A stretch of DNA of 64,000 bases. It comes from Polystyrenella longa (GTDB taxonomy: Bacteria; Planctomycetota; Planctomycetia; Planctomycetales; Planctomycetaceae). Of this stretch, positions 43,824-61,756 are shown piece by piece. Under the pieces are notes generated by a model. The model was not told where the DNA came from, made no database searches, and worked only from the letters and a program-made list of their open reading frames with translations. The first letter of the stretch is position 1. Each line of letters starts with the position of its first letter. The stretch is taken from NCBI RefSeq assembly GCF_007750395.1, contig NZ_CP036281.1, positions 595,211 through 659,210 on the forward strand, written 5' to 3'. Position numbers and translations under genes: made by a program.

Positions 43824-46018
43824 TCGGGTTGCTCGCTTCGAAATACACGACGTTCAACATGCATGAGTTCATTAGTCTCCCACATCACTCGCACGACGGT
43901 CTCATTAGAATAAAGGAAATCAGCGACGATCTGATTAGTTTCAAACGATCCGGGTCGCGGGGCGACGGAATGGACTCGAAGAAATAGACTTTTGTCTCGG
44001 GTGCTCTCCACAGCATGCATTAGTTGCTGCACAGTCGATCGACTAGCCGAATAAGAACTGGATGAGCCTGCAGGTCTAATCACTTCCACTTGGACCGATT
44101 GGGGGAAGTGCCGAGCTACTAATTCACGCAACGCCTCTGGAGCATTCAATATTTCCGGAGTGAGTTCTTTCCAGAAACCTGGGGTATGTTTCCAGCGAGT
44201 GCTGTCGTTGATTTCGTCCGCTTTGGGAATGGAAAATCCGACGTATAGCTGCGGCGACCATTTCTGTAGCTGTTGAGTTAATGAATACTCACCAGACAGA
44301 CTACCTTCGTAAAGAGGGGCGGCTGCATTTTTCTGGTCGCGAGTCTGATTGAACTCTCCGAAGCCAGGTCGAGACATCCAGTTCGCTGTACTTTCGATAG
44401 GACTCACCAGTTGTTGGTCGTAATTCGTCGTTTTGATTTGTTGGGAAGGGCTAAGCACACACTCGAAGGAAGTCTGCCGGAGTACCTCGCCCTGTTCATC
44501 TACATCGGTGACAAGAATCGCGCGGATGGGATCTTCAATCTGCATATAAGCATTGATGCTGCCGACAGTAAAGAAGGTGAAAACGAGCGTGATTATCGGA
44601 AAGCTGAGCCAGGTCCATTTTCGTATTTTGAATTTGCCAAGAAGCCAATATTCTCCCGGTCCAACCAGAATGAGATAGGCGATCATGACCCCCATGACGA
44701 ATGAGGGTGGAACCATTTGAAACCCATCCGGGAGTAGGGTCGACCAGGCGTTGTTCTGCTGCAGCCAGTATTCTGGTATATGAGAAGTAATGTGCTGATC
44801 TTGTCGATAAGCTAATTGCATTTGTGCCTGAATCTTTTCTTCGCTCTTGAATTGATCAGGTATAAACCCAGACTGTCTATGCGACGAGGTTGAATTGAAT
44901 TGGTCTACAGGCAGTTGCCCCGGGCTTGGGGGAAGTTGAAAGATCTCTTTATCCAATAGTAAGTCAGCAATGTTCTTTCTCACTCGCCAGAGAAAGAGAT
45001 AGGTCTCCAATTTATTCTGATTGAATTGTTCCTGATCTCCGGCTAACTCTGATGTTAACATCGCCACGCGCCCCAGCCCGCAGTGGCGAAGAATTGGAGA
45101 TGTAGAGGGAGTTGAAGCGTCGTCCCAACTCAACTGTTTTTCGATGTCATTGTAGAACAAGGGCGCTTCTGAATTAGAACTGTCCAAAGTGTTCAAATTG
45201 TGCAGGTGCTGATCGTCCACGCTCTCCGGCAAGTACAACAGCAAGTTGCCTCCTGCTCTAACCCACTGAAGAATGGCCTCGAATTCGTTCTGTGACAGAT
45301 CCTGATAAACCTTTTCCCACATCACGAGTATATCGAAGCTGGTATAATCGATCGGGCGTTCGGGAAGTGTGTCTTCATCCAGTTCACTGAAAACCGTTTG
45401 TTGTATCGAACTCCGAAAGAAGATCTCCTGATCTTCGTTCAATTGAATCGGCTCTTTGTAACTTAACCAGTCTTCAACCTGCACTTGCCGCAGACGGTGC
45501 TGCTCTTCTTCTCCGGTGAACTGATTCAGCTTCGGTTTGCAGAAACCAATAGAAAAGAATTGGGAGTTATAATTGGGAACCTGAACGGGATGTGTATCCA
45601 GATCGAACCTTTTGTCATTTGTTTCCAGATACATCTGCAGGTCGACTTGTCCCGTGTTCGCTCTGTATAGCTGTAAGGGCAACACCATCCGGGTTCGCTG
45701 CTCCCCTTCCACGAACGTGGCACTCGTTCGGAAAGTAAAGAGCTTGATTCTGGATTCAATTCCTTCGGTGGCTTCAATGACAAGATCGCCAGTGAGAATC
45801 TGTTTCGAGTTATTGAAGGCGTGCAAGGTCACTGGCAGCGGCGACTGTCCCCGACTGCGGTTAACGAGTGGCAGGACTTCGATGCTCACCATGCCGACAG
45901 GAATCTCTTCTTTCTCGTCAGCCGCATTCACAACCGCTGGGCATGCGAACATCGACAGGAGAACCAGCTGGCTCACGATCCATGTTGAATAAAAACTGGT
46001 TATTGAAACTCGTTTCAT
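43820..46018 (-). CDS. Exported protein with amidotransferase-like fold and TM helices, module 1
   Basis: A 732-aa protein. Signal peptide about 1-33 (ending VNAADE). Beta-rich region of about 40-215, then the amidotransferase-like segment at 228-262 (SFDILVMWEKV, ILQWVRAGGNLLLYLPESV), two TM helices around 440-500 (VMGVMIAYLILVGPGEYWLL then FPIITLVFTFFTVG), and a C-terminal domain of about 230 residues. The VGPGEYWLLGK element between helices recurs in related planctomycete proteins. Overlaps its neighbours by 4 nt on both sides. Counterpart of the 608-aa protein of module 2. Confidence 0.82.
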   Translation of the reverse strand: MKRVSITSFYSTWIVSQLVLLSMFACPAVVNAADEKEEIPVGMVSIEVLPLVNRSRGQSPLPVTLHAFNNSKQILTGDLVIEATEGIESRIKLFTFRTSATFVEGEQRTRMVLPLQLYRANTGQVDLQMYLETNDKRFDLDTHPVQVPNYNSQFFSIGFCKPKLNQFTGEEEQHRLRQVQVEDWLSYKEPIQLNEDQEIFFRSSIQQTVFSELDEDTLPERPIDYTSFDILVMWEKVYQDLSQNEFEAILQWVRAGGNLLLYLPESVDDQHLHNLNTLDSSNSEAPLFYNDIEKQLSWDDASTPSTSPILRHCGLGRVAMLTSELAGDQEQFNQNKLETYLFLWRVRKNIADLLLDKEIFQLPPSPGQLPVDQFNSTSSHRQSGFIPDQFKSEEKIQAQMQLAYRQDQHITSHIPEYWLQQNNAWSTLLPDGFQMVPPSFVMGVMIAYLILVGPGEYWLLGKFKIRKWTWLSFPIITLVFTFFTVGSINAYMQIEDPIRAILVTDVDEQGEVLRQTSFECVLSPSQQIKTTNYDQQLVSPIESTANWMSRPGFGEFNQTRDQKNAAAPLYEGSLSGEYSLTQQLQKWSPQLYVGFSIPKADEINDSTRWKHTPGFWKELTPEILNAPEALRELVARHFPQSVQVEVIRPAGSSSSYSASRSTVQQLMHAVESTRDKSLFLRVHSVAPRPGSFETNQIVADFLYSNETVVRVMWETNELMHVERRVFRSEQPE

Positions 46019-47910
46019 ATTTTATTCGCCCCCAATGGACGACGCTGGAAGAACCACCACTCCAGAATGAGGAATCCGAACGCTCCAAAAGCAAGATAAC
46101 GCCAAAGGGGTTTGTCCGTATCAACTCGCTGTGCTGCAGCGGAAACGGGCAGTTCGTCGAACTGGATTTTGTTATTAGACACCAGAGACGACTCATGGGG
46201 ATTTACCAGGCTTGCTCCACGACGGGCAATGAGATCACCTCCCTCTCGGATTTCGTATTCACCGACATAGGGGGCGGATATCCCCGCCAAAATCCCGTGA
46301 TTGTCGCTCGATAACTTACGGCTCAAATCGTGTGGTCCAGTAATATTGTAGTCGGTTTCCCGGGAAACGAGTTCTCCCGGTAAGACTCCTGTTTTCGCGG
46401 CGGAGGCATTAGATAGTCCGGCGACTTCCATCGCTTGCTGAACCAGATTTGTTACCAAAACCGGAAAACCGATTCGATACGGCAACGTTGACAGCCCGGC
46501 ACGGAACAACATGAAATAGCGGGTTCGTTCAATCTGCTTCTGTTGCAAGAGAAGTGGCCCTTGTTGCCCGTGGACCAGAATCTCATAGCCAAGATCCTGT
46601 AATTGCTTTCCCCCAGCTCCCTCGGAGTAGGCGGGTTCTTCATTGATGATGAGATTCTGAAGTTGAACATGTTGTAGCAATGGAGAGGTCCGAAACCAGT
46701 CGACCACCATCGCCTGGTCTTCATTCACGGAAACGAGTGTTTCCAGATCAGTCGGGGTATACCCCTCGTAAAACTCCAATGGTGCGGAACGAATTGAAGT
46801 AGGTGGTTCCTGACTGAGGATCAGGTCGAAGTCACCCGCAGCAGTTTCAGGATCGGTACCGGGAGCAGGGTAGACTTCAATCCGTTCGAGCGAACTGAGT
46901 ACGTGTCGAAAGGCAAGCATCTCAGGGTCGACGAAGACGCGGAGGGCACGAGTGCGAGGGATGGTCAGAAATGCTCGGTTATCGGCAGCGAGAGAATCGT
47001 GTTGTTTGGGAATTAATTGAAGTTCGAACTGGGCAGCGTCGTTGACCTCAATACGGACTCCAAACCGATGCGGTGTTTCCTGTCCGACGAGAATCGTCGA
47101 TTGGTCGATGACCTCCCCGTTCTTCAATAACTTAAGCTCGGCTCCTATCGTTTCTTGAGCGGCCTCAATCACGGCGAACACGTCCCAGGAGTTATCGTCG
47201 GTGCGTTGCGCGTTGAAGGAAGTAATTCCGAGGTTGGCCGTGACCGTGGGGATTTGTTGATAGTTAATCGAAAAAGGAAGCTCGAAGTTAATCTGTTCGG
47301 GGAAATTCCCATCCGAAAAGAGAATCACTTCTTCCACGGGCACCGTTCGAGACATGGCTTGTACCATCCGCAGGCCATCTTCGATCTCACTGGGGAGATC
47401 GACAGCCTCCAGGTTCTCGAGAGCTTTTCGTAACATCCGTTTGTCGTCGGTGAATTCCGTCAATCGCCGCGCCGAGGCGTCGACCGAGACCAGCGACATC
47501 TTTTGATCGGAGGTCAGGCTGTCGATCATCTCGCCAATGCGTTTTCGCGCGACATCCAACCGGGATTCCCCTGTTTCAGCATCGACGGCCCCCATACTGG
47601 CGGAAGTGTCGACTACGATGGGGATATACCGGGCCCGTTCCGCGTCGCCCGTTAGAAAGGGTTGGATCGCCGCCAGAATTAACAATGTCAGGAGCAGGAG
47701 TTGGAGCAGAAGGAGAATGTTCCGTTTGAACCTTTGGAACGGAGAATTCACTCGTTGATCGTCCAGGACCTGTTGCCAGAGGACGAGGGACGAAACGCGT
47801 TGCTGTGGTCGTTTCAATTTCAGGAAATAAAACAGGACCAACGGAATTAGCAGCAGGAAGAGCCAGCCGAAATGGAGAGCCTGAAAACCGATCCAGCTCA
47901 TTGGACCCAT
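46015..47910 (-). CDS. BatA-type protein with VWA domain
   Basis: A 631-aa membrane protein. The N-terminal BatA domain has two TM helices (about 12-30 and 63-83) with FYFLKLKRP after the first. A von Willebrand A domain follows with a full MIDAS DTSAS (101-105). The central part (about 230-560) is beta-rich, and a C-terminal TM helix (about 608-625) anchors the end with a Arg/Lys tail. Proteins of this kind are the partners of MoxR and DUF58 proteins. It overlaps the DUF58 gene by 13 nt and the module 1 protein by 4 nt. Confidence 0.92.
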   Translation of the reverse strand: MGPMSWIGFQALHFGWLFLLLIPLVLFYFLKLKRPQQRVSSLVLWQQVLDDQRVNSPFQRFKRNILLLLQLLLLTLLILAAIQPFLTGDAERARYIPIVVDTSASMGAVDAETGESRLDVARKRIGEMIDSLTSDQKMSLVSVDASARRLTEFTDDKRMLRKALENLEAVDLPSEIEDGLRMVQAMSRTVPVEEVILFSDGNFPEQINFELPFSINYQQIPTVTANLGITSFNAQRTDDNSWDVFAVIEAAQETIGAELKLLKNGEVIDQSTILVGQETPHRFGVRIEVNDAAQFELQLIPKQHDSLAADNRAFLTIPRTRALRVFVDPEMLAFRHVLSSLERIEVYPAPGTDPETAAGDFDLILSQEPPTSIRSAPLEFYEGYTPTDLETLVSVNEDQAMVVDWFRTSPLLQHVQLQNLIINEEPAYSEGAGGKQLQDLGYEILVHGQQGPLLLQQKQIERTRYFMLFRAGLSTLPYRIGFPVLVTNLVQQAMEVAGLSNASAAKTGVLPGELVSRETDYNITGPHDLSRKLSSDNHGILAGISAPYVGEYEIREGGDLIARRGASLVNPHESSLVSNNKIQFDELPVSAAAQRVDTDKPLWRYLAFGAFGFLILEWWFFQRRPLGANKI

Positions 47911-48803
47911 CCTTCCCGTCGCAAGAGATCAAACAAGATTTGCTCCACTGTTGTTTCGGAATTGATTGACAGGAACCGACCACTTCGTTGACGGCACTGC
48001 AGGGCGAGTTGTTCTTCGAGTGCGAGGCGATGTTCCTGATAGAGTTCTAAAAGGTCACCTGCGGAGGAGATGTCGAGTGTTGAACCGTATTCGGAATCGA
48101 CCAGTCTGATATCGCCGGTGAGATCGGGATGGATTTCGGACGGCCCGAGAACTTGCAAGCCCATCACTTCCAACCCACGGCTGTAAAGCATGTTAAAGGA
48201 CTTAGACAGGTCTCCTAGGGTCAGGAAGTCGGAAAGCAACACACAAATGCCACGACCGCGATGCGTGCGTAAAACAGACTCGACGGCTTGATCGATAGGT
48301 TGATCGCCTCCTCCTTCAAGTCCTTCCATGAAAGCGAGCAATCGCTTCAGGCTGGTCCGACCGCTACAGGGAGGGAGCTGGAAAGGATGAAGCCCCTGCA
48401 TATGACAACCGTAGATCGACAACCGTTCGAGGCTCATAATACTCATGATGCCGAGGGCAGTGGCGAGCTGTTTGGCAAGGGTGAATTTATTTTCGAACAT
48501 CATGGAGGAGGACGCATCGACAATGATGACGACATGCATCTCTTCTTCATGCCGGTACTGTTTCATGTACGGGCGGCCCAGACGGGAGAAGATGTTCCAG
48601 TCCACGTAACGGACGTCGTCACCCGCCACGTAGTTTCGGTAATCCGAAAACTCGGTGCTGGTTCCTCCTTTGCCGGAGAGATGTTCACCATGCGATTTAT
48701 TGGTGAACTTCCGGCGGGAGAGTAAACGCATTTTCTCTACGCGGCCCAACGTATCGTTGGCCAGTAGCTCCGTCAGTTGCGTTTTTTTGGTGGGAGTTTC
48801 CAA
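47898..48803 (-). CDS. DUF58 protein with VWA fold (MoxR partner)
   Basis: A 301-aa soluble protein. The DUF58 signature FSDYRNYVAGDDVRYVDWN is at 52-70, and the VWA MIDAS DASSS is at 96-100, intact, unlike the DUF58 protein at 10216. No TM helices are visible. It starts 3 nt after the MoxR stop. The pair MoxR-DUF58 is the standard arrangement; the product probably binds MoxR substrates through its metal site. Confidence 0.93.
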   Translation of the reverse strand: METPTKKTQLTELLANDTLGRVEKMRLLSRRKFTNKSHGEHLSGKGGTSTEFSDYRNYVAGDDVRYVDWNIFSRLGRPYMKQYRHEEEMHVVIIVDASSSMMFENKFTLAKQLATALGIMSIMSLERLSIYGCHMQGLHPFQLPPCSGRTSLKRLLAFMEGLEGGGDQPIDQAVESVLRTHRGRGICVLLSDFLTLGDLSKSFNMLYSRGLEVMGLQVLGPSEIHPDLTGDIRLVDSEYGSTLDISSAGDLLELYQEHRLALEEQLALQCRQRSGRFLSINSETTVEQILFDLLRREGWVQ

Positions 48804-48806
48804 GGG

Positions 48807-49817
48807 TTATGCCTCCTCCGGCAGTTGTTCCATCATTTCGCTGACCAATGTGGAGACTGAGACGTTTTCCGCCTGACCGTCGTAGTTCAATAAAGCACGA
48901 TGCTGGAGGACTTCCACGCCAAAGTAGCGAATGTCTTCGTAGGAAACATGCACACGACCTTGCGACAGCGCGCGAACACGGGCGGCCCGAATGAGTGACT
49001 GTGCGGCGCGAGGGCTGGCTCCCCAACGTATGAATTGTTCGATCTGGGGATTGGAGAACTCTGTTGCTGGATGTGTTGCCAGCACTAACCGCACGGCGTA
49101 ATCCCGCATCGGGTCAGCGACGACTACTTTGTCGAGGATTCTTCGAAGTTCCAGAATGCGCTCGGAATCGAGGGTCTTCTCCAAGTTGACTTTGTTTCGC
49201 AAAATCGTACGAGTCACAATTTCATTCAGTTCGTGTCGCGACATAAAGGGTACATCGACTTTGAACATGAATCGATCAAGCTGGGCTTCAGGAAGAGGGT
49301 AAGTTCCTTCCTGCTCGATTGGGTTCTGGGTCGCCATGACGAAGAACGGTTGCGCGAGTGTGTGGATCGTTCCCCCAGTGGTGACCGTTCCTTCCTGCAT
49401 CGTTTCGAGCAGGGCCGATTGTGTCTTCGGAGAGGCCCGGTTGATTTCATCTGCCAACAAGAGCTGGGTAAAGATTGGGCCTTTGCGGAATTCAAAACGG
49501 TACTTGCCCGTTTCGTCGGTACTCATGATATTGGTACCAATGATATCCGCCGGCATCAGGTCGGGAGTGAATTGAATCCGGCGAAACTCCAGATCCAACA
49601 CTTGGGACATTGCTTTTACCAGTTCCGTTTTTCCAAGACCGGGCACCCCTTCGAGTAGAATGTTTCCACCACAGAGCAGCGCCGTCAGCGAAGCTTCGAT
49701 AACGCGCTCCTGCCCGACGATCACTCGGCCGATCTGATCTTTCGCTTCCTGGTATTGCTGTTTGAAGTGATCCGCTTCGGCCTGTAGCACTTCATTTTCC
49801 TGTACCGGGCTATTCAT
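48807..49817 (-). CDS. MoxR-family AAA+ ATPase
   Basis: A 336-aa AAA+ ATPase. Walker A GVPGLGKT at 57-64, Walker [10 protein letters not shown] at 119-127, sensor-1 ATQNP followed by [20 protein letters not shown] and the sensor-2 region GASPRA. It starts ATG at 49817 with a 79-nt gap to the large VWA gene upstream and ends 3 nt before DUF58. It is paralogous to the protein at 9248. Confidence 0.95.
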
Positions 49818-49896
49818 GACGGTTTTCTCCAGAGGATTCTAATTCGGGTGGATGATTCGTTGTTTGGTATGAGGGATGACACTGCGAGATTACAGG

Positions 49897-52800
49897 TCAG
49901 TTTCCTTTTTCTTTGTCTTCTTCACGACGACGTTTAATTTCAAGCAGCTTGCTCGTCATGCGGTTGGAGTCCGTTTTTCTTTTCTCCTCCGCCTGTTTGG
50001 CTTCTGCCTGTCGTTCCTGTGTTTTACGTGTCTCGGCCGCTGCTGACTTGGCTTTCTGTTTCAAGTCCATCGTGCCCGTTGAGGTTTTACGGGCAGAGTT
50101 TGCTAATTGCTGGGCCCGTTGTGATTCCCGTTGGCTTTCAAAGGAACCTTTCAGTTGTTGTTTCCTGTCGAGCAGGGTTCCCATCGTCGCTGTGGATTCT
50201 GTTTTCTTTCCGCCCCACGAGAACCAACTGGAAAGAAGATACCAGTCGATCTGAATACGACGAAGGGCGACATCGAGAGGAACCAGGCAGGCGAGTGCAA
50301 TCAGGAACCAGTCGAATATTGGTTGAGAGCTTTCCCGGGACTCGCGACGGTCGAAGACTTCCTTAGCGGCGGGGGTACTGCTCAGTTCTTTTCCCTGAGT
50401 CCTTTCGGCAATGCGTCTGAGGATCGTGGTCTTGGATTGGAACTCCATGTACTCAGTGTCGTAGGGGTTAATGATGGCACCCACGGCTTGTTCGTTTCGA
50501 TTCCCCGAGACACCTGCCGACACCACGGAATAACGCCCCTCACCCCAGAGAGGCAGATTCGCTTCATACCGGCGGGGGCCGACCTGTTTGAGGTCGACAG
50601 TCTCGCTCCGATTCTGAGGTCCGTTGACTTGGGCCTGAACCGTCAGGAAATCCTGATTCGGCGAGGCATCTTCGACGACAATGGTCCCTGTGTTTCCCTC
50701 CTTGTAAGTCCACATCGACAGCGATGTTTCTTTATGAACTTTAGAAATGTGCGTGACAAATTGCTGGACGAACGCCTGGTACTGTTCCCAGTTGACCCAA
50801 TTCACTCCCCATTGCAAAGAGAGGTCCGAGGTGAAGGCGGCCGACTTGCCCAGTCCATACTGCCATGTCGCCAGAATCGGATCGACATCGACTCCCTGTT
50901 CTCCCTCATTGATAACTTGTAATGCCGATTCAGCGTCATCTTTGATCGAGGTTAACACGTAACCTTCCAGCGGTGGAATTGAGGTGATCCCTTTCAGAAT
51001 TGGAGAAGGGAACCCGGATTCGGGCACGACCGTTTCGTTTTGAATCATCGTCCGTTGTAAGGTTTGCGCTTCCTTAATGAAAATCGAGGGCAACATGTTG
51101 GGGTCGTCAGGGTAGTAGTAACGTCCCCCAGTTGCCTCCGAGATGCGTCGCATGGTGGAGATCTCCTGACCTCCGTGCGGGAAGATGGCGATCGTGGAAA
51201 TACTGATTTGCGAGTCCTGATATTTTTTGATCAGTTGTGGGGTGGGGGGTTGAGGGTCGCCATCGGAGATCACAATCATATGCTTGGCGGAAGCGTCGCT
51301 AGCACTCAGACTTTTAAGGCCTAATTCCATCGTCGTGGCGAAACTGGGCATGTCGCCGATTTGGGCGGAGTTAATCTTCTGAGCCATCATTTCGTATTCC
51401 GACGTGGGAGTCAGATCGAATAACCATTCCTCACCCTTGGGCCCATAAACAAGAATCCCCGCTTCATCTTGTCGGCTGAGGACTTTTATCGCCTGTTTGG
51501 CAATTCGTTTTCCCCATGTATTACCTTGAGGGAATTCGCACGTATGCAGAATGATCGCCAAGGCACCTTTAGGAAGGACTTTTTTGTTCGAGACATCCAT
51601 GGTCACAGGCAGGGCGTCTTCAATAACAGTCCGGTGGTAACCTCCCGGACCATAGCTGTTCTCTCCTCCGAGCATCGCGAATCCTACACCCAGGTTTTTC
51701 ACGGCGTCGTGCATCGCCTGTTGCTGGGTGACATCAAATTCGTTTGCACCGACATTCACAAAAAAGATGGCGTCATACGGCATCAGCGAGAGAGAGTCCC
51801 GGGGGAACTCATACGCCGACATCGTTTTCACCTGGCGTTTGCTCTCGGAGATCGCTCGTTGCAGATCGGCCCAATCCTTGGCGTCTCCATTTGGATCGGT
51901 GACCAGCAGGACGCTACCTTCTCCTTGAATGTAAAGGTAGTTGACCATCCGGTTATTTTCGGAGAGATTGTCGATTCCCTCTTCGGTTTCCAGTTCGGCC
52001 GTGTACTCGTAGTAACCGGGATTTCGTAGTTGGATGGGAATCACAAACCGATTCTTACCCGCTTCGAATTCAACTTGCTGCTCCGCGATCTTTTCACCAT
52101 TCTCATACAGGTTCAATTTTCCTGACCCAGCAGTAATGGAAGAAAGGACGATGGAAGCCTCATAGCTTTCGCCAATTTTAACGGAGTGAGGCAAGTCGAG
52201 CCGTTCCAGCCAGACTTCCGAATCGTAGGTGTATTCAATGGGCAGAATGTCGACCATGATGCCGCGGGAGATCAGTTCATCGACGACCCGGTTCAGGTTG
52301 CCTTCAGTTTCAATACCGTCACTGATCAGGACAACGCGTCCCTGATTTCCTTCGGGAAGCATGGCACCGGCGAGAGAGAGAGCTTCTTCAATATTCGTGG
52401 CGCCCCGATCAACCAAGGAGTTGATCGCCCCTTCATAGGGGAAAGTGACGTTCGGCGGCATTTCAACTGCCGAGTTTCCACCGAAGACGATGAGGCCGGA
52501 TTCATCCTCCTGTGGTTTTTCCGGATCGCGAGCGATGTCGGCGGCGTAGGCAATCGCTTTTTCACTTTCGCTGTCGGCGACTGAGTCCGACATGTCGATG
52601 ACGAACATGACCGAAAGTACATCGCTGATGCGCACGGCGCGCGGTTCTGCCAGCAAGATAATAAACAGTCCGACAATCGTCAGACGCACCAACAGGCTGA
52701 CCGTCCGGCGAGTGGGGGCCAGTCCGCTCCACCCGTTGAGAGACATCCACCAGAACCAGACCATAAATATGGAAAGCAGGAACATCCATGGGCGTCCGAA

Positions 52801-52944
52801 GACCATGATCTGCCAATGGTCGAGTGCGTACATTGATCCCAGAAAGAGCACCAGGAACAATAAGAGCGGCAGCATCCGCACGAAGGAGAATTTTTCCTTC
52901 GCCGGCGGAAACAGGCTCTTGAAGATCGCAGTCACTTTATCCAT
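49897..52944 (-). CDS. Large VWA membrane protein with amidotransferase-like domain
   Basis: A 1015-aa protein. Three N-terminal TM helices (about 24-40, 52-69 and 83-99), then a VWA domain with MIDAS DMSDS (117-121), then a beta region, then a class I amidotransferase-like domain containing AMLGGENSYGPGGYHR, a second VWA-like segment (IVISDGDPQPPTP), and a further TM helix near 900. The C-terminal 100 residues are a Gln/Lys/Glu coiled coil predicted to lie in the cytoplasm. Similar proteins are common next to MoxR operons. It starts 21 nt from the ATPase-fusion gene. Confidence 0.88.
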   Translation of the reverse strand: MDKVTAIFKSLFPPAKEKFSFVRMLPLLLFLVLFLGSMYALDHWQIMVFGRPWMFLLSIFMVWFWWMSLNGWSGLAPTRRTVSLLVRLTIVGLFIILLAEPRAVRISDVLSVMFVIDMSDSVADSESEKAIAYAADIARDPEKPQEDESGLIVFGGNSAVEMPPNVTFPYEGAINSLVDRGATNIEEALSLAGAMLPEGNQGRVVLISDGIETEGNLNRVVDELISRGIMVDILPIEYTYDSEVWLERLDLPHSVKIGESYEASIVLSSITAGSGKLNLYENGEKIAEQQVEFEAGKNRFVIPIQLRNPGYYEYTAELETEEGIDNLSENNRMVNYLYIQGEGSVLLVTDPNGDAKDWADLQRAISESKRQVKTMSAYEFPRDSLSLMPYDAIFFVNVGANEFDVTQQQAMHDAVKNLGVGFAMLGGENSYGPGGYHRTVIEDALPVTMDVSNKKVLPKGALAIILHTCEFPQGNTWGKRIAKQAIKVLSRQDEAGILVYGPKGEEWLFDLTPTSEYEMMAQKINSAQIGDMPSFATTMELGLKSLSASDASAKHMIVISDGDPQPPTPQLIKKYQDSQISISTIAIFPHGGQEISTMRRISEATGGRYYYPDDPNMLPSIFIKEAQTLQRTMIQNETVVPESGFPSPILKGITSIPPLEGYVLTSIKDDAESALQVINEGEQGVDVDPILATWQYGLGKSAAFTSDLSLQWGVNWVNWEQYQAFVQQFVTHISKVHKETSLSMWTYKEGNTGTIVVEDASPNQDFLTVQAQVNGPQNRSETVDLKQVGPRRYEANLPLWGEGRYSVVSAGVSGNRNEQAVGAIINPYDTEYMEFQSKTTILRRIAERTQGKELSSTPAAKEVFDRRESRESSQPIFDWFLIALACLVPLDVALRRIQIDWYLLSSWFSWGGKKTESTATMGTLLDRKQQLKGSFESQRESQRAQQLANSARKTSTGTMDLKQKAKSAAAETRKTQERQAEAKQAEEKRKTDSNRMTSKLLEIKRRREEDKEKGN

Positions 52945-52965
52945 CGAGTTGATCCATCGATCAGG

Positions 52966-54792
52966 TTATTGATTCAGCTGAATGACTCTGCGATTGCCAG
53001 TATCGGCAACGAAGACATTGTTCTGCTGGTCCACCGTGATTCCCCAGGGGGTATTGAATTGTCCGAGTCCGGTTCCTATGGAACCATAACGGGCGAGGAG
53101 TTGTCCTTGTTTATTCAGCTTGGTCACACGACCGGAACCGTATTCCACAACATAAAAAACATCTTCCGGCCCGGCAGCGATGTCGTACGGGTAATTCAGT
53201 TCGAGTGGATGTTCAGTCGATCCCCAGGTTGCGAGGTGCTTCCCTTCTTCGGTGAATACCTGGATTCGGTTGTTAATCGCATCGGCGGCATAAATCCGAC
53301 CGTCGTGCCAGGTAATTCCACTCGCCCGCTGAAATTCATTGTCTGCAGTCCCAAATCCGCCGAACGAGAGCAGGAAGTTCCCGTCCCGGTCGAATTTCTG
53401 GATACGGTCGTTGCCACCATATTCACAGACGTAGAAGTTCTCGTTCTGGTCCTCAGTAATACTGACGGGGTAGATAAATTGTCCCGGTTTGTCTCCTCGT
53501 TCGCCCAGCATCGAAACGACGTCGCCCTGTTCATTAAAGAAGACGACTCGGTGATAGTGGGTATCGGCGACCGCAATCCGTCCGTCCTGCAGCTGGATAA
53601 TTCCTTCCGGTTTGCCCACGTCATGTTCCGGCATGTACCAGTGACGCAGTTCCTTTCCATCGAGAGTATAGATGAGGACACGACCACCCGTGTCGAGAAC
53701 AAGGACATTCTGTTCTTTCGACATCCCCATCGCACGCGGCGCTGGGAGCGCGTAACCATCTTTGGGCAACATCCAGTACCGGGTTGATTCCACCGGTAGG
53801 ACAACTCCCTCGGCGGAACCACATCCGGAGAAGAGACAGATTCCGAGCAAGAGCAGCAGGGCTTTCAAAAAACCTCGTTGACCGGCGATGAAAGATTGAT
53901 TGGTCGAACGTAACCAGACTTTCCGGCGAAGGTCATCTTCAGGGTGATGTAAGTCGACTTCCTGCAGAGCGCCGAGCGAACAAGCCTGTTCGACTTCACA
54001 TGGCCCTGATGCATCCGACTGCCAGGTGAGCTGTTCAGGTCGATGATGTTGGATTGTGTTGTTTGGGTTCTCGAACCAGATGGAAACTTCTTCTGCGGCG
54101 AACCAGTTCGTCGGTCCGAGGTACCGTGCCAGCTCTTCAGAGGGAGGAGATTGATAAAGATCTTGTGTTGATCCCTGAAAAAGTAATCGTCCCTCTTTCA
54201 AACAGAGCACCTCTTCGGCTTCTCGCAAGGCGACTTCGGGTTGATGGGTCGAAAAGAGCAGAGCGATCTGCTGTGACTGACACCATTCGCGGACAAATTC
54301 CCAGTAGCCCGGTGCACGGGCAGGGTCGACATGCACAAGGGGTTCGTCCATCAGCAAAACCTGTGGCGCTGCCACTAAGGCGCGGGCCACAGCGACGCGG
54401 GATTGTTCCCCCTGCGAAAGCTGGTGTGGATATTTGGACTTGAGCGGAAACAAATCAAATGCCTGTAGCATGCGCTCGATGTGCAGCGTCGTGGGTGGGG
54501 TTACGACTTTTTCCAATTGAGCCTGCACCGTGAGATGCGGCCAGAGGCCCCAGGTGTGAGGAACCCAGAAGAGAGGAAGCCGGTTAGTTGCTTTTATAAA
54601 CTGAGGTTTTACTTCACCGGATTGAGGTTGCTCAAAGCCGGCGAGAACATTCAGTAGCGATGTCTTACCCGAACCGGACGGTCCCAGAATGGCGGTCGGT
54701 CGAGACGTGAGGGTGGCGGAAAAGTGATCGAGCCGGGGAGTAGGTTTTCCCGGCAATATCACATTCGTCACAGACCAGTACACGTCAGACAT
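52966..54792 (-). CDS. ABC importer ATPase fused in frame to an NHL-propeller lipoprotein
   Basis: A 608-aa reading frame. Residues 1-300 are an ATP-binding subunit: Walker A GPSGSGKT at 37-44, signature LSQGEQ at 125-130, Walker B LLMDEP at 146-151, H-loop STHQ with His183, and a TOBE-like tail. Residues 309-324 then form a lipoprotein signal (LKALLLLLGICLFSGC, Cys324) leading into NHL repeats up to 608. There is no stop between the parts. Leu309 is a TTG codon at 53868-53866 with GAGG four bases upstream, so the propeller could be made separately as a 300-aa lipoprotein (52966-53868), or as a true fusion. The ATPase matches the permease and binding protein just upstream. Confidence 0.85.
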   Translation of the reverse strand: MSDVYWSVTNVILPGKPTPRLDHFSATLTSRPTAILGPSGSGKTSLLNVLAGFEQPQSGEVKPQFIKATNRLPLFWVPHTWGLWPHLTVQAQLEKVVTPPTTLHIERMLQAFDLFPLKSKYPHQLSQGEQSRVAVARALVAAPQVLLMDEPLVHVDPARAPGYWEFVREWCQSQQIALLFSTHQPEVALREAEEVLCLKEGRLLFQGSTQDLYQSPPSEELARYLGPTNWFAAEEVSIWFENPNNTIQHHRPEQLTWQSDASGPCEVEQACSLGALQEVDLHHPEDDLRRKVWLRSTNQSFIAGQRGFLKALLLLLGICLFSGCGSAEGVVLPVESTRYWMLPKDGYALPAPRAMGMSKEQNVLVLDTGGRVLIYTLDGKELRHWYMPEHDVGKPEGIIQLQDGRIAVADTHYHRVVFFNEQGDVVSMLGERGDKPGQFIYPVSITEDQNENFYVCEYGGNDRIQKFDRDGNFLLSFGGFGTADNEFQRASGITWHDGRIYAADAINNRIQVFTEEGKHLATWGSTEHPLELNYPYDIAAGPEDVFYVVEYGSGRVTKLNKQGQLLARYGSIGTGLGQFNTPWGITVDQQNNVFVADTGNRRVIQLNQ

Positions 54793-54968
54793 AATCGTCC
54801 CGACATTGAAGAAAAGCAGAAGAGGAGTAAACCGGCACAACCCTGTTGGAACTGTCCCAGATTCATCATCCAAAATAACAGAGGAGAGGTCCCGATTACC
54901 AGAACCGTAACCGGAGTGTTTGTACGAGAGAAGAGATTGAGATTAATGTTTATTGTGAAACAGGATAG

Positions 54969-56465
54969 TTAAATTTCGTGAGGTATGTCGGAGGTTGCCG
55001 AGTGGTTGGCTACCGACCATCGAATGATCATTGCCTGTACGAATTTAAAAACCAGCATCACCAACAGAATTAATAGACATGGTGCTGTTATGATAGCAGA
55101 TAGCATGGCCGATAATCCAGTCCCCTGTCCGTAATGCATGAAATTATACAAACGCAACGGAGCCGGTGTCGTCGCGGGCGAGGCAAGAATCGAAGGTGTC
55201 GTCATTTCGAAATAAGCCCAGAAAAAAACTGGCAACAGGCACCAGAATTGTGGCCACCATTGCTGTTCCCAGCGAAGCTGCAAACCACTTCGTTGTTGCG
55301 TAGCTGACGGTGAAGATCGAAGTAATTTACCGAGGAAAAGGGGCTCGCGCTGAACGACGTCCCGACGAATGAATTGAATTAAAACGGCGCGGGGCAACAC
55401 AAATAAATATAGTCCGAGAACGAGCGGAAAAGGGGTGTCGTAAAGGTGATGAAACGGTTCTTGTTGGAAGAGTTCAAACAGAGCGAGGCTCATTAAAAAA
55501 GATCCACACAATCCGGGCAGGCAGATTAAAAACAAGCCTACTTTGGACCACCCGCCTAACTGTCCTCTTCCGGCCCAGTAGACAGCCGTACCATGCGCCA
55601 ACAGTCCTGCAGCCACTGCGAAGGCACAAGCGTAACCGGTCTCGCGCAGAAGAGATTGATTCGTCAGGAAGACGGTCCAACCGGAAAGGGTTCCCCGAAA
55701 AACCAATCCGATCGGAATGGCGACAATCAAGACGAACGCCAACATTAGATAGGCCCAAGTCGTGCCCCGCCAAAGAGAAGACGGTTGAGTGGGAACCAGG
55801 CACATGGCTCGGTTGGCAAACTTACTGATATACAGGTAAGTGCCAACGGCCGCCATGAGGACGCAGAGTTCGATGGCGAGTGGAAAAGAACCGAATCGAA
55901 ATATGTTTTCTGACTCCCAACCGATGGCGCGAGCATCAAACAGCCACAGCGTCCAGGCGGTGGTATTCATCAGTGAGCAAATTTCGAATTCCTGAAAGGC
56001 GACCAGAAAGGTCAGCCCTCCCGCAGGTAACAGTCGCAGCCCGGGGCCACGAAACCACCAGAGCCAGTGCCTGAGCGACTCCCACTGTCTGCTCTTACTC
56101 ACGGAAGCCGCTTCGCCCGAGATTAAGTCGCGGCAATACAGCCCCTCAGCCGAAAGAGGAGCAGGGGGAGAGAAGTGCAATAGGACGGTTGCGACGGGGA
56201 CCGTTTTGAGTACGACCAGAAACCCATAGAAAAATTCATTCCAGCCCGGGTGATGAATGAGGGAGAGCGAGAAGTTGTAATACGCATATCCCACGAGCAG
56301 ATCAGGGCAGAAGAACGGGGCAAGCAAGGCTCCCCAGATCAGTCGCTGTTGCCAGCGATGATTAGTTTTCAAGCAGGGCTGGAGTCGGTGCGCCAGCGAC
56401 ATGGCCAGAAGAGTAATCAGGCAGGCGCGGATCAGGCTGGCCACGATGGTGACCGTGAAACTCAC
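54969..56465 (-). CDS. Iron(III)-type ABC importer permease
   Basis: A 498-aa inner-membrane protein with about 12 hydrophobic helices in two halves, as in FbpB/ThiP-type permeases of the binding-protein-dependent importer family. The two typical EAA-like coupling loops are degenerate; one is at LLPAGGLTFLVAFQEFEI. It starts with GTG at 56465, its GTGA overlapping the stop of the binding-protein gene; AGAGGAA lies upstream. The ATPase gene follows after a 176-nt gap. The permease and binding protein are co-translated. Confidence 0.88.
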   Translation of the reverse strand: MSFTVTIVASLIRACLITLLAMSLAHRLQPCLKTNHRWQQRLIWGALLAPFFCPDLLVGYAYYNFSLSLIHHPGWNEFFYGFLVVLKTVPVATVLLHFSPPAPLSAEGLYCRDLISGEAASVSKSRQWESLRHWLWWFRGPGLRLLPAGGLTFLVAFQEFEICSLMNTTAWTLWLFDARAIGWESENIFRFGSFPLAIELCVLMAAVGTYLYISKFANRAMCLVPTQPSSLWRGTTWAYLMLAFVLIVAIPIGLVFRGTLSGWTVFLTNQSLLRETGYACAFAVAAGLLAHGTAVYWAGRGQLGGWSKVGLFLICLPGLCGSFLMSLALFELFQQEPFHHLYDTPFPLVLGLYLFVLPRAVLIQFIRRDVVQREPLFLGKLLRSSPSATQQRSGLQLRWEQQWWPQFWCLLPVFFWAYFEMTTPSILASPATTPAPLRLYNFMHYGQGTGLSAMLSAIITAPCLLILLVMLVFKFVQAMIIRWSVANHSATSDIPHEI

Positions 56466-57592
56466 TGAAGAAATTCCTCTTTAAGCCAGTCGAGACATTC
56501 GTTCCTGGCTTTCAAGAGTCCTTCCAGGGGAACTCCTTCTGCTGCCCATTCCTGTAACTGTTTCACTTGTTCGGGAAGTTTCGTTTCATCCACGGTTCCA
56601 AGTGGCACCTGTCGTGAACGAGAGTTGGCGAGAGCCAGTTCGATTTCTGGCGAGAGCAGAAAATCAACAAGCTGTTGAGACGCTGATTCCTGTTCCGTTC
56701 CTTTAACGATGGCGACTGTGTTCGGAATGCAGATCGTCTGACCTCCTTCGGTTCGAATAGGCAGCATGGCGACCGGTTGTTTATCATCGACCGCTAGAAA
56801 GTAATCGTCCGTGTCGGTCCAACCAAATTCACAAACACCACTGGCAACCAGGTTCTTAACGACGGCATTGCCCTGGACGATCTTCCAACCTTGTTTGGTT
56901 CGCTGCTGATACCATTCTTTAACGGCATCGCCTCCCATCTCCGACCACATGAGTGCATACTGCGTGAGTGTGGTACCGTAGAGAGGTTTGGCGACCGCCA
57001 TTTGGGAGAGGTCACCCGTGAGTGCTTCTTCGACGGACTCGGGAGAGGCTTCCATCTTGTTTGTATTGATAATGTATAATCGCAACCGACCGCCAAAGCC
57101 GGTCCACGTGCTGTCAGTTGATTTGAACTTCGCCGGAATTCGATCGGCATTAGGGCTTTGATAAGCATGCAGTAACCCACGCTCGGCGAGATCGAGGGTT
57201 CCCAAGATCTCATTGTTCCAGAACACGTCGCACCGTGGATGTTCCGCTTCGGCGATAATCGATTGCACTAGTCCTAGAGATTTCGTCGCTTCGGTGTCAA
57301 AGCGAATATCGATATCGATTCCCGTCTCTTTCGTGAAGCGGTTAAGGATCTCTTCTGAATAGATCGAATCGTGAGCGCAATAGACAACGAGATGATCGCT
57401 CGCGTCCGAGGAGTTCGCGTCTGATCCTGCATCGTCACAGCCACTCAAAGAGAAGTAAGCCATAAACATAAACAGAGGGAGCGTCAACGAAATCAGGCCG
57501 GTAATGGCCGTTTGAGTATCACTCGGAGTCGCTGGTTGTTTCAGCCGCGGGTTCAGCCGCAGGGGCTGTCGTAGGCTCCGCTGCAGGAGCAT
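56462..57592 (-). CDS. Extracellular solute-binding lipoprotein, Fe(III)/FbpA type
   Basis: A 376-aa protein of the family 1/6 periplasmic binding proteins. LSGC puts the lipidated Cys at residue 52 of this start, then a linker DDAGSDANSSDASD and the fold starting LVVYCAHDSIYSEEILNRF. Motifs such as CDVFWNNEI and GGRLRLYIINTNK match FbpA-like iron or ferric-ligand receptors. The start is uncertain: the frame is open to 57700, and ATG at 57592 gives a 30-residue basic n-region overlapping the previous gene by 74 nt; a TTG 35 codons later would give a shorter signal. Substrate is not certain; the group also includes thiamin and phosphonate receptors. Confidence 0.85.
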   Translation of the reverse strand: MLLQRSLRQPLRLNPRLKQPATPSDTQTAITGLISLTLPLFMFMAYFSLSGCDDAGSDANSSDASDHLVVYCAHDSIYSEEILNRFTKETGIDIDIRFDTEATKSLGLVQSIIAEAEHPRCDVFWNNEILGTLDLAERGLLHAYQSPNADRIPAKFKSTDSTWTGFGGRLRLYIINTNKMEASPESVEEALTGDLSQMAVAKPLYGTTLTQYALMWSEMGGDAVKEWYQQRTKQGWKIVQGNAVVKNLVASGVCEFGWTDTDDYFLAVDDKQPVAMLPIRTEGGQTICIPNTVAIVKGTEQESASQQLVDFLLSPEIELALANSRSRQVPLGTVDETKLPEQVKQLQEWAAEGVPLEGLLKARNECLDWLKEEFLQ

Positions 57593-59279
57593 TCTCAGTT
57601 TCGCCAGGTAGTGCGATGTCATTCGCTTCCAGCGTGTCGAAATACTTTTTAATACTGTCACGATAACCGGGTGGAATCTGTTCCTGTTCAATGGCTTCAC
57701 TAACTCCCTGGCGTAAATCTTGAATGAGCGAACCGAGTTGGGCTTCCTTCTCGCCTGACTCGTTGACGTCTTTACTGGCGACGGACATAATCAATTCTCC
57801 CTGAGTCAGTTTCGACTTGGAGAACTCCGTTTTGAAACCGGACTTGGCCGCTGGGTCTTCATCGACCACTCCGCCGCGGCCTGTTCCTTCACCACCGGTT
57901 CCATCTCCATCACCGTCACCGGGCATATTTCCCTGCATGCCTTCCATCATGGCGGCAAAGGCTTCGGCGTATTCGGCGAGAGCATCTGCCTCGCTGATCA
58001 TCGACATCTCCTCTTCGGAAAGTTCTTCACCCGAAGCCATTTTTGCCTTCGCCTGCTGTAATGTCTTCAAGGCTTCTTCCAAGGACGCCAAGTCTTCCAA
58101 TGACTGTTCCATTTCCTGTAATTCCATCTTCGCCAGTTCGGCGGAACTCATGGCGCCCTTCTCACACGATTCACAGTTTTCTCCCGGTTCTCCATCGGGG
58201 TTCTTGCTCATGTTGGCCATTTCAAGTTGCTTCATCGCACGTTTCAGCGCGGTAGTCAACTGTTGTGACTGGGCATCGTTTTCGGCAAACTCTTTGACTT
58301 GTTTTAACTGTTTGAGCAGTTCCTTACGGAGCTTGGATTTTTCCGAGGAATCATTCGACTCGGCCATCTTTTTCATTTTGTCGAGAATGTTTTCCATCTC
58401 GCTTCGCAGACTTTCCGTAGAACCTTCCTGGAGTTCTTTCTTCCATTCTTCCAGCTTGGCCTGTTCTGCCGACGAACCGAATCGCTGTCCTGACATTTTT
58501 TTGTTGAAGGCTTTGCTGAGTTGGTCCTTATTCAATTCTCGCCACATCTTGCCAAGTGGTTTCTGAATTTCGGCCAGCTTTTTCTGATTGATTTCCGGAG
58601 CTTTGGGTTGAAGTTCTTTGAACGTTTTTTTCAATTCGTTCAGAGCCTGTTCGACTTCTTTAGACCGCTTCTGCTCGGGGGCAATCTGTTTCTCTAGTTC
58701 CTCTTTGCGTTGATCTGTCGCTTTGTTTTCGACTTGCAGTTCTTTTTGTTGTTCAAGCACGGCTTCTTTGGCCTGAAGTTCACCGAACGGATCGAACTGA
58801 GGAATCAATTGCAGACCAATTAAAACGGCCGCCATTCCCGCAAGCTGCGCGAACTGTTTGCCAAAGAGAAAAGGGACAACGTCTGTCGGGTGAATTTCCT
58901 CGGCCCGTTGTTCCGCTTTCTGAACAACGAGGGGGCGGTAATCACCGAACGCTTGATCGAGTCGCGAGATCGTCAGGTACAGATCGTCGGAATGGTAGTA
59001 GCTATCGACTCGGCGGGCGGAATCGGAAAGGTTGGGACGACGATAGAGAATGGTCCCCATGATGATTCCGAAGACAGGAACTATTGCCATCGACCAAGAA
59101 AAATAAGAGCCATTGGGAAAGACATCTTCGCCATATCCACTCAGTCGGCTTGCGAGAAGGAGCAGGGCATACACAATGCCGGCGCTGAGCGTCCAGGCGA
59201 ATGATTGAAACGCCCAGCGAACCAGATGCAGACGAATCGAAACTCGTTTTAACATCGTCATCGATTTGGGAAAATCCAT
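57519..59279 (-). CDS. Coiled-coil membrane protein
   Basis: A 586-aa protein. Two TM helices near the N-terminus (about 27-46 and 58-78) and one at about 145-160 are followed by a very long coiled coil (about 170-450) rich in Lys, Glu, Gln and Leu, then a Gly/Asp-rich linker (GDGDGDGTGGEGTGRGG) and a C-terminal Pro/Ala/Glu tail. A Cys pair (CESC) lies in the coil near 378. ATG at 59279 is chosen because of AGGAG seven bases upstream; the frame is open further. Such proteins accompany MoxR/VWA operons in planctomycetes. It may be a scaffold linking envelope and cytoplasm. Confidence 0.82.
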   Translation of the reverse strand: MDFPKSMTMLKRVSIRLHLVRWAFQSFAWTLSAGIVYALLLLASRLSGYGEDVFPNGSYFSWSMAIVPVFGIIMGTILYRRPNLSDSARRVDSYYHSDDLYLTISRLDQAFGDYRPLVVQKAEQRAEEIHPTDVVPFLFGKQFAQLAGMAAVLIGLQLIPQFDPFGELQAKEAVLEQQKELQVENKATDQRKEELEKQIAPEQKRSKEVEQALNELKKTFKELQPKAPEINQKKLAEIQKPLGKMWRELNKDQLSKAFNKKMSGQRFGSSAEQAKLEEWKKELQEGSTESLRSEMENILDKMKKMAESNDSSEKSKLRKELLKQLKQVKEFAENDAQSQQLTTALKRAMKQLEMANMSKNPDGEPGENCESCEKGAMSSAELAKMELQEMEQSLEDLASLEEALKTLQQAKAKMASGEELSEEEMSMISEADALAEYAEAFAAMMEGMQGNMPGDGDGDGTGGEGTGRGGVVDEDPAAKSGFKTEFSKSKLTQGELIMSVASKDVNESGEKEAQLGSLIQDLRQGVSEAIEQEQIPPGYRDSIKKYFDTLEANDIALPGETENAPAAEPTTAPAAEPAAETTSDSE

Positions 59280-59564
59280 ATCCAAACTCCTGTGGAGGAC
59301 GGGACAGAGTAGTTTGCCAGCGTTTTGAACCAGTGGGTTATACCAGAGAAACGATGGAGGGTCGCGCTGTTTATTGTAGGCAGAAATCAGCAAAAACTGA
59401 ATTCCAATCCAGATCTATTGCTAAAAAACACCCAGATGGCTGAGGGGAGATCTTCTGTACGGGTGTGTAGTTTTAAGTCGCAGGCTTCTATGTCTCTGTT
59501 GTCTCCGACGTCTGTTCGGGAGGAGAAGTTCCGTTAAGGTGGTGTATCTAATGGAGTTTGATCT
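59280..59564. other. Intergenic region
   Basis: It separates the coiled-coil gene from the EF-hand gene on the same strand. No terminator or clear promoter is visible, so co-transcription is possible. Confidence 0.4.
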
Positions 59565-61223
59565 CTATTTATCACCCGAAACCTGTTCCGCTTCTTTCGG
59601 GCTGAGTAGCCGGTCCTGGTCCAGGTCGAATTTCTGGAAAAGTACTCCCGGTCCCAGAAATTCTCTGCGCGTCAGATCGCCATCGAGATTCCGGTCCATC
59701 TGTCTAAACCATTCCGGCCCCGTCGTGGGGGGAGTCAAAATCGGGCCAATCCGATTGGCATTGTTCAAGTTGAAACTATCCATGAACAGGCTAGGAGGCT
59801 GCAGTTGAAATGACAATTCGTAAATCGTCTTCATTTCTGGTTCGGTCAGTTGGCCATCGTGGTTGTTGTCGAAACTCTTCATCTTTTCTGCCGGGTGGAG
59901 TAACTCACGCGGTTCCAGGCGTCGGTCGCTATCGACATCCAGCAGGCGGAACAGAGACTGACTCTTTTTATCCACAGACATTAACAACTGACATTGGGCG
60001 AGGCTCGCTTCCTGATTCACGTACTTGGTTAATTCCTCCCGCGTTAACTTTTCATCCTGATCTTCATCAAGGTATGCAAACGGAGCAAGCACGTTCAGGC
60101 CTCTTGCTTCCTCTTTGGTGAGACCTCCATCGCTGTCGGTGTCCGCTTGCAGGAATCGCAGCTTGTAAAAACTGAGGACATCCGCAAACTGTGGACGCGG
60201 GTTGTGAATCCTGACCCCTAACTCCCAGCCACCGACGGAAAGTTGAGCACGGGAACTGGAAGATCGTGGATACTTCCAGTCTTCATCTTCGGTATCGGCT
60301 TCCCAGAACCGGACGGTGATTCGCTCTTGCAGTGGCATTCGCATTCGCCAGATTCTCTGTGCGGGGGGATCTGTCAGCACACGCAATAACTCGGTCCGGT
60401 TCAGTGCCTGATCTTCGTTGGCGTCGAATTTTTTCATCCAGTCATCTGCGGTCCAGCCAAGTTCTGTCTGATCGAGTTGGCCATCTTCCTTTTGACCCCG
60501 AGCACCGTCGTATTGTGCCAAAAGTTGTTGTGCCAATTGTTCGCGGGGCTGTTGGGGATCGATCAATTCAAACAAGCCAGCACTGTGACCCGCGGGCGTG
60601 GGTTGAGATCGAGCGACCGTCAGATTGAGGGGCCGCAGCAGAGGCATGACTTCGACCAGGTTCAATGTTTCGTCATCGTCGAAATCGTATTTCTCCAGGA
60701 GATGCAAAGCCGACTCCCATTCATCGGCTTCAAGAATATGGTCTTCGTTCAGATCGAGTTTGCTGAACAAATCGGGCAGATCGGATACCCGCGCGGATTC
60801 GAGTTGTAAACCAAACGGGATACCAAGAGCTGGTTCCAGTATCGCCACAAAGGTCTCGCGGGTGATCGGCGCGTCATTGCTTTCAGCCTGACTCTTGACC
60901 ACGTCCTGCATTCGTGCGGGTCCGCGGAACTGTCGGAGTTCTTCGAGGTCGATTTCGCCATTCCGATTCGTATCGGTCTGCTCAAACAGATTGCCCAACA
61001 GGCCAGCCCGCATTTGCTCGGGGGGCTGGGAATCGATCGCAACCTGTAAACGAATGAAATAAGGATGCTGTGATTCAAAGAAGAGCAGGGTGTAGCTGTC
61101 GTATTTGGGACCCTCGGTTTTTTCGCGAGAAGCGGGTTGCGCAGCGGCGATGGTCGAGAGCAACAACAGGCTCATCGCCAAGCAGCAACAACGGATTCCG
61201 GTGGAAAACTTGAGGATGGCCAT
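59565..61223 (-). CDS. Exported multi-EF-hand protein
   Basis: A 552-aa protein with signal peptide (about 1-28, ending AAAQ). It contains about ten EF-hand-type Ca loops: DTNRNGEIDLEE, DLNEDHILEADE, DFDDDETLNLVE, DANEDQALNRTE, DTDSDGGLTKEE, DEDQDEKLTREE, DVDSDRRLEPRE, DNNHDGQLTEPE, DRNLDGDLTRRE and DLDQDRLLSPKE, with 12-residue DxDxDG-type loops of varying quality. The likely role is extracellular Ca binding or surface adhesion. ATG at 61223 is used; GTG at 61226 immediately before is equivalent. It sits at the head of the minus-strand array. Confidence 0.9.
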   Translation of the reverse strand: MAILKFSTGIRCCCLAMSLLLLSTIAAAQPASREKTEGPKYDSYTLLFFESQHPYFIRLQVAIDSQPPEQMRAGLLGNLFEQTDTNRNGEIDLEELRQFRGPARMQDVVKSQAESNDAPITRETFVAILEPALGIPFGLQLESARVSDLPDLFSKLDLNEDHILEADEWESALHLLEKYDFDDDETLNLVEVMPLLRPLNLTVARSQPTPAGHSAGLFELIDPQQPREQLAQQLLAQYDGARGQKEDGQLDQTELGWTADDWMKKFDANEDQALNRTELLRVLTDPPAQRIWRMRMPLQERITVRFWEADTEDEDWKYPRSSSSRAQLSVGGWELGVRIHNPRPQFADVLSFYKLRFLQADTDSDGGLTKEEARGLNVLAPFAYLDEDQDEKLTREELTKYVNQEASLAQCQLLMSVDKKSQSLFRLLDVDSDRRLEPRELLHPAEKMKSFDNNHDGQLTEPEMKTIYELSFQLQPPSLFMDSFNLNNANRIGPILTPPTTGPEWFRQMDRNLDGDLTRREFLGPGVLFQKFDLDQDRLLSPKEAEQVSGDK

Positions 61224-61756
61224 CACGGTTCATTTCTCATGAATGCTAATTATGAAACAGGGTCTTTCAGCGTATCAGGTTCATCGACAATTGACAAATG
61301 GATTTCACCGGCGGGATCGCTTCAATCTGGGAAAAGGAAGGCTTCACTGAATCGATGGGAATCGAACGACACTTTCTTAATAAATATTTCTTAGAAGGTG
61401 CTCCAGGTTCGAGTTGATGTCGATTGTCCTTAACTTCTTCCTAATTGCCCCAGCTTTGCAGGGGTGGGTGAGGGAGTCAGTGGAAAATCAGTGTTTGGAG
61501 TAGGGAAAGCGATTGGCAGGCGCTGTTTGACGTTTACAATAGACTACGTCTGATCATGTTACCCTGATTTTCCTCATTGGAGGCGGCTGGTGGCTGTCAA
61601 CTTCACGCTGTTGATAGATATTGTGGAGTGACTTGAATCACTTGCCAACTCTCCTTTGTTAAACCCATGTCGAAACCGAAATGAGATTGAGACGCTTCTC
61701 TGTGAGAAGTTCGTTGTCTTACTGCTGACTGGTTTCGAAGTAGAGCCCCGAGAAAC
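61224..61756. other. Divergent intergenic region with a candidate promoter
   Basis: Between the minus-strand EF-hand gene and the plus-strand TPR gene. It must carry promoters in both directions. A candidate plus-strand promoter is at 61513-61540 (listed separately). No gene is visible. Confidence 0.5.
61513..61540 (+). promoter_or_regulatory. Candidate sigma-70-like promoter for the TPR gene
   Basis: TTGGCA (61513-61518) and TACAAT (61535-61540) with a 16-nt spacer, about 216 nt upstream of the TPR gene start. Consensus match is fair and the spacer near ideal; no experimental support. Confidence 0.3.

Follow-up and report, generated by a model that had tools for sequence, protein, structure and literature searches.

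The window analyzed here is a 64,000-nucleotide stretch of Polystyrenella longa DNA. On its minus strand, a single gene at 52966..54792 encodes an ABC ATPase, a TOBE-like domain, a lipoprotein signal and an NHL propeller, in that order, in one protein of 608 amino acids. The frame runs for 608 codons without a stop from the ATG at 54792 to the stop codon at 52966-52968; an alternative in-frame start is possible further upstream, at the TTG at 54873. Translation of the plus strand across 52966-54792 meets many stops. A preliminary description of this DNA had placed an importer ATPase, a full lipoprotein signal and an NHL propeller in one uninterrupted frame. Its coordinates were right, and its reading of the product was borne out: Pfam matched ABC_tran (residues 33-152) and NHL (best stretch, residues 579-603) on the same chain, with the signal at residues 309-324.

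The flanking genes also lie on the minus strand. Upstream are an extracellular solute-binding protein of the Fe3+/aminoethylphosphonate type (56462..57700; SBP_bac_8/6, PhnS-like), whose start is uncertain and overlaps the next frame, and a presumed importer permease of 498 amino acids (54969..56465), so named by position and conservation; the latter had no Pfam or NCBIfam match. The fused ATPase/propeller gene comes next. Downstream of it, the order continues with a vWA and glutamine-amidotransferase-like protein (49897..52944) and a MoxR AAA+ ATPase (48807..49817), both recognized by Pfam, then a DUF58 protein (47898..48803) and a BatA/vWA protein (46015..47910). The MoxR protein also gave a weaker match to Pfam bpMoxR, a model for MoxR-vWA-beta-propeller systems. 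The importer genes share one row (46015-59393) with MoxR, DUF58, the two vWA proteins and a protein that is coiled-coil-like by eye; an EF-hand-rich protein is encoded upstream of this row, at 59565-61226.

The ATPase half begins with an ABC nucleotide-binding domain (NBD; residues 1-235, 54088..54792, minus strand), identified by Pfam, alignment and Foldseek. It carries Walker A (GPSGSGKT), the signature (LSQGE), Walker B (LLMDEP) and the H-loop (His183). In an alignment of 30 fused proteins, G37, S39, G40, G42, K43, S126, G128, D149 and E150 were invariant. The nearest NCBIfam ATPase models describe aminoethylphosphonate, tungstate and ferric importers, and each matched far below its cut-off. 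Foldseek matched the ATPase half to a Thermus ferric importer ATPase, the FbpBC ATPase 9j4r_B (TM 0.73 by target), over 340 alignment columns of a 340-residue target.

An AlphaFold2 model of the fused chain, built with 20 sequences, had a mean pLDDT of 89.5 and a pTM of 0.53; with so low a pTM, we do not regard the arrangement of the domains relative to one another as predicted. In the model, the NBD is followed by a beta-rich C-terminal domain, with its last strand at residues 306-311, then by a stretch of low confidence at 315-328 and by the propeller as a long run of strands. The beta-rich domain (residues ~251-311, 53860..54042, minus strand) had no Pfam TOBE match, either within the full chain or as an 88-residue part of the TOBE stretch; hence, its name rests on fold and pattern. 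By fold, a modeled C-terminal regulatory domain of the TOBE type is present. From the position of its last strand and the match to 9j4r_B, this domain appears to be complete, with the lipoprotein signal starting at its end. The propeller (residues ~344-608, 52969..53763, minus strand) was assigned by Pfam, AlphaFold2 and Foldseek, with NHL propellers such as 6xg7 matching at TM 0.86 by target; ScyF was its nearest NCBIfam model, far below the cut-off. Both the ATPase and the propeller are relatives of known families.

Between the two halves lies the internal lipoprotein signal, LKALLLLLGICLFSG (residues 309-323, 53824..53868, minus strand), recognized by hydropathy and by a Lys or Arg before the hydrophobic stretch. 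It is followed by the lipobox Cys324 (53821..53823, minus strand), the predicted lipidation site, so that the signal including this Cys reads LKALLLLLGICLFSGC (residues 309-324). All three parts of a lipoprotein signal are found, namely a positive n-region, a hydrophobic h-region and a lipobox Cys, with a loose -3 position. The signal is not at the N terminus of the translated product but begins near residue 309, and in the AlphaFold2 model no ordinary linker separates the two parts, the signal starting right at the end of the TOBE-like domain. The sequence predicts a cut between residues 323 and 324.

How widespread is this arrangement? A first search of 59 genomes, that of P. longa included, returned full-length single-frame matches from many genera, with 40-70% identity to the window protein. 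We then considered 170 genomes of the family, again including its own; 123 hold the propeller part at E<=1e-40. The two halves share one frame in 73 of these, from 26 genera and including P. longa, and several of the fused genomes are single-contig. In 38 others, from 11 genera, the ATPase and propeller are separate open reading frames. Eleven genomes have no ATPase in the stretch examined beside the propeller (one of these loci is at a contig end and another on a 3.3-kb contig), and one genome, whose match begins at a contig end, was left unclassed. Our split set of 39 comprises the 38 plus G007, from the first search.

Outside the family, 32 of 392 genomes in a sample of the phylum matched at E<=1e-60, 8 of them from other families. 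Four of these 8 matches, in four different families, span the junction, and the fusion was confirmed in 4/4 on the fetched loci; a fifth outside-family genome is split. Among the 78 named matches listed, 19 are fused; this set overlaps the other genomes and was not added to the 73. Fused rows among them include four metagenome-assembled genomes (MAGs) labeled Verrucomicrobiota and one labeled Phycisphaerales. By the titles of named relatives the fusion belongs to Planctomycetota, and by MAG labels also to Verrucomicrobiota. Four individual loci or groups stood out. One of the 73 fused genes (G021) has an in-frame TAA in its ATPase half just after LSQGE, either a broken gene or a MAG error. One of the 39 split loci (G185), with a frame broken within the propeller, resembles a fused gene that has been damaged. 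In another split locus (G104), ATPase and lipoprotein are kept apart by a further reading frame that is acyltransferase-like by eye, so the pair is separable. Four distant propeller relatives (L189, L193, L194 and L208) have an upstream frame with hydrophobic, membrane-like stretches; the 40 residues shown upstream of their matches contain no lipobox.

Neighboring genes were compared across the three classes. A relative of the permease lies upstream in 64/73 fused loci (some flanks are short), 16/39 split loci and 0/11 propeller-only loci; in split forms, where its signal is weaker, the permease may have diverged or truly been lost. A vWA gene follows the propeller in 71/73 fused, 37/39 split and 10/11 propeller-only loci. 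From these counts, the fusion joins the last gene of the importer to the first gene of the vWA/MoxR group, and the steady partner of the propeller is the vWA gene.

The ATPase half departs from its relatives at one position. The Q-loop Gln is usually near-invariant in ABC ATPases. In the window protein, it is His79 (54556-54558) that aligns with the FbpC Gln; Walker A, the signature, Walker B and the H-loop are kept. Read by pattern, Gln is found in 7/73 fused and 29/39 split proteins (replaced in 66/73 and 9/39), a reading that gave no match in one split row and misplaced the position in at least one fused row (G028). Read by aligned column, it is found in 8/48 fused and 16/24 split proteins (replaced in 40/48 and 8/24). 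The raw counts differ, but starred branches of the tree described below supply only three independent pairs, too few to tell whether fusion and loss of the Q-loop Gln are linked, and we do not treat such a link as proven.

The junction is alike throughout the fused proteins: the last TOBE strand, mostly of the pattern G-x-x-V-x-L and carrying Arg or Lys in the 73, runs directly into the hydrophobic stretch and then the Cys. Cys324 and the TOBE Gly304 are invariant in the alignment of 30 proteins; in a second alignment of 20 rows, Cys324 is invariant and Gly304 nearly so. A matching Cys is kept in 73/73, although it was chosen by rule (a Cys after G/A/S/N/Q near a hydrophobic stretch) and the counts lean towards finding one. 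Arg or Lys precedes the hydrophobic stretch in 73/73, an acidic residue falls between -18 and -3 in only 6/73, and the Gly-to-Cys spacing is 20 residues in 47/73. The stretch has a mean hydropathy of 2.44; outside it, the best 15-mer of these proteins averages 1.43. Gly occupies position -1 in 71/73 and Ser in 2/73, letters partly set by the search rule. Position -3 is looser in fused proteins: [LVIMFA] occurs in 43/73, compared with 29/38 split lipoproteins, and in many rows of genus g56 the residue is Cys, Gln, Gly, Ser or Asn.

In the split forms, all 38 lipoproteins examined have a signal-like stretch and a Cys by the same Cys-and-hydropathy rule. The split ATPases lack a comparable hydrophobic tail: the best 12-mer in their last 35 residues averages 0.69, with a highest value of 1.77 (n=37). 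G185 was omitted from the split lipobox and start counts, which use 38 of the 39, and G185 and G104 from the tail count. Split ATPases without a tail, and split lipoproteins with their own signal and Cys, mean that both halves occur apart. The window protein has the makings of a polyprotein: two proteins in one frame, a signal between them, and both parts known separately.

We measured selection in 47 within-genus pairs of at least 72% identity, which share rows and are not independent. Pooled dN/dS was 0.156 for the NBD, 0.198 for TOBE, 0.182 for the junction, 0.118 from the Cys to +20 and 0.075 for the propeller, and the junction Cys was aligned in 47/47 pairs. Purifying selection acts on both halves of the fused gene. 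A tree was built from 72 rows, both halves together, with at most three rows per genus per label; it left out G185 and G021, for the broken propeller frame and the stop noted above, and G104, whose ATPase is not adjacent. Fused and split labels require 8 changes on this tree, in which 21 of 69 inner branches are open, and at least 3 of the 8 are forced by starred branches; shuffled labels require about 20. Split rows adjoin fused ones in genus g28 and among the Verrucomicrobiota-labeled rows. The uniform junction suggests one old fusion followed by later splits; repeated fusion may also have occurred.

The reading we favor, and consider probable, is that the gene encodes a polyprotein whose internal lipoprotein signal receives a lipid from Lgt and is then cleaved by LspA. 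One gene would yield one chain, whose ATPase-TOBE half would be made and folded in the cytoplasm. As internal signal the chain would use the hydrophobic stretch that follows the last TOBE strand, with the Arg or Lys of that strand as the n-region. The chain would insert N-in/C-out, translocating the propeller; Lgt would then lipidate Cys324, and we infer that LspA would cut before it. Two products would result: a propeller anchored by its lipid in the periplasm, and an independent ATPase powering the importer encoded just upstream. The leftover signal would presumably either stay on the ATPase as a short C-terminal tail or be trimmed by a site-2 or SppA-type protease. The P. longa genome has LspA and Lgt family genes, and its M50 and S49 protease families could trim the leftover signal.

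Cutting after translation fits best because fused and split forms are interleaved, split ATPases lack a hydrophobic tail and the Cys is kept. Three points sit less easily with it. The -3 position is looser in fused than in split forms. If nothing followed the cut, the ATPase would end in a hydrophobic tail, which split ATPases lack. Lastly, the last TOBE strand overlaps the n-region, so TOBE folding and membrane insertion would compete for the same residues.

Might the chain instead stay whole? The main rival, which we think unlikely, is a bitopic protein that is never cut but may be lipidated. With its ATPase inside and its propeller outside, it would link a periplasmic signal to the ATPase of the importer. 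Such a topology, like that of ToxR and RodZ, is feasible, and the fusion persists over 26 genera under purifying selection in both halves; the looser -3 position in some genera would also fit a plain signal anchor. Against this, all 73 keep the Cys and have Gly or Ser at the preceding position, the tree mixes fused with split forms, and the propeller retains its vWA neighbor where no ATPase adjoins. Moreover, the TOBE-like domain abuts the membrane segment without a linker; in importers of the MalK type, the regulatory domain is distant from the membrane. The preliminary description had called the arrangement topologically odd. A chain with its N terminus inside, one pass and its C terminus outside is ordinary for ToxR/RodZ-type proteins, so that part of the remark falls away; the part that stands is that the sole pass is a lipoprotein signal with a lipobox Cys, and this conserved Cys in a membrane pass predicts a cut.

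A second alternative, less probable still, is a dual product, with the gene making the whole chain and, from an internal start close to the signal, a lipoprotein as well. The start proposed in the preliminary description, a TTG at the Leu309 codon (53866..53868, minus strand) with GAGG 4 nt upstream, is indeed present in the window. It is not conserved, being CTC in both same-genus relatives (L002 and L003). We searched 14-32 codons before the Cys for ATG/GTG/TTG with a Shine-Dalgarno-like match upstream; starts without such a match and rarer codons lie outside this test. The null was synonymous resampling from each gene's own codons, in which ATG itself cannot be resampled. Some start falls in the right stretch in 55/73 fused genes, compared with 52.7 expected. 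A start with a Shine-Dalgarno match was no commoner than chance in the tested stretch (17/73 seen, 17.6 expected), and ATG or GTG with such a match gave 14 seen against 12.9 expected in the 73. By itself this is a weak test, since only 15/38 split lipoproteins show a start and Shine-Dalgarno-like match, in a somewhat wider stretch. ATG alone was found in 13/73 fused genes versus 19/38 split lipoproteins in the same stretch. Nor was there a silent-site dip near the junction: silent change at conserved codons was 0.46, 0.40 and 0.40 in the three bins before the Cys, within a range of 0.34-0.55 along the profiled stretch (47 close pairs). We rejected a conserved internal start, and the suggestion of an in-frame nested gene is not supported.

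The remaining suggestions, that an assembly error or a recent loss of a stop codon joined two ordinary genes, might draw on the split neighbors in 38/123 propeller-bearing family genomes and in G007 but can be dismissed with near certainty: the junction is open in 73 genomes from 26 genera, including several assembled as one contig, and in four other families, and dN/dS is 0.16-0.20 across ATPase, TOBE and junction (47 pairs). We conclude that the fusion in P. longa is real.

On the wider proposition our confidence is evenly divided. It holds that polyproteins matured by LspA form an old family, widely inherited in the phylum, in which a complete ABC ATPase would serve as the n-region of a lipoprotein signal. 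Maturation would then free both the periplasmic propeller and a subunit of the importer, the ATPase, which might keep a membrane tail. Were the chain cut, the role of LspA would extend beyond removing N-terminal signals to parting a cytoplasmic enzyme from a periplasmic lipoprotein, and importer activity would depend on lipoprotein maturation. Such proteins would also be missed by predictors that scan the first tens of residues and by single-enzyme annotation. The natural fused and split relatives are ready-made controls. Searches of open-licence PMC papers turned up neither a polyprotein cut by LspA nor this ATPase-propeller fusion.

Each part has recognizable kin. The ATPase resembles FbpC/CUT1-type ATPases (FbpC, PotA, CysA and MalK) in its Walker A and B motifs, signature, H-loop and TOBE-like regulatory domain; a binding protein (by Pfam) and a presumed permease (by position and conservation) are encoded upstream. 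The ATPase differs in that its C terminus runs into a lipoprotein signal and propeller, and in that the Q-loop Gln is replaced in most fused members. The propeller shares the fold and repeats of NHL-propeller proteins, such as the NHL domains of TRIM71 and Thin; unlike these, it is bacterial and sits behind an internal lipobox, and its split forms are ordinary-looking lipoproteins. Bitopic proteins of the ToxR/CadC/RodZ type cross the membrane once, with the N-terminal domain in the cytoplasm and the C-terminal domain outside. The fused protein matches this layout, but its membrane pass carries a conserved lipobox Cys. FbcH of Bradyrhizobium, the cytochrome b/c1 precursor, is reportedly a polyprotein cut by signal peptidase I after a multi-pass protein. 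As in FbcH, two proteins share one chain that would be split at an internal signal sequence; in the window protein, by contrast, the predicted cut is made by LspA and follows a soluble ATPase.
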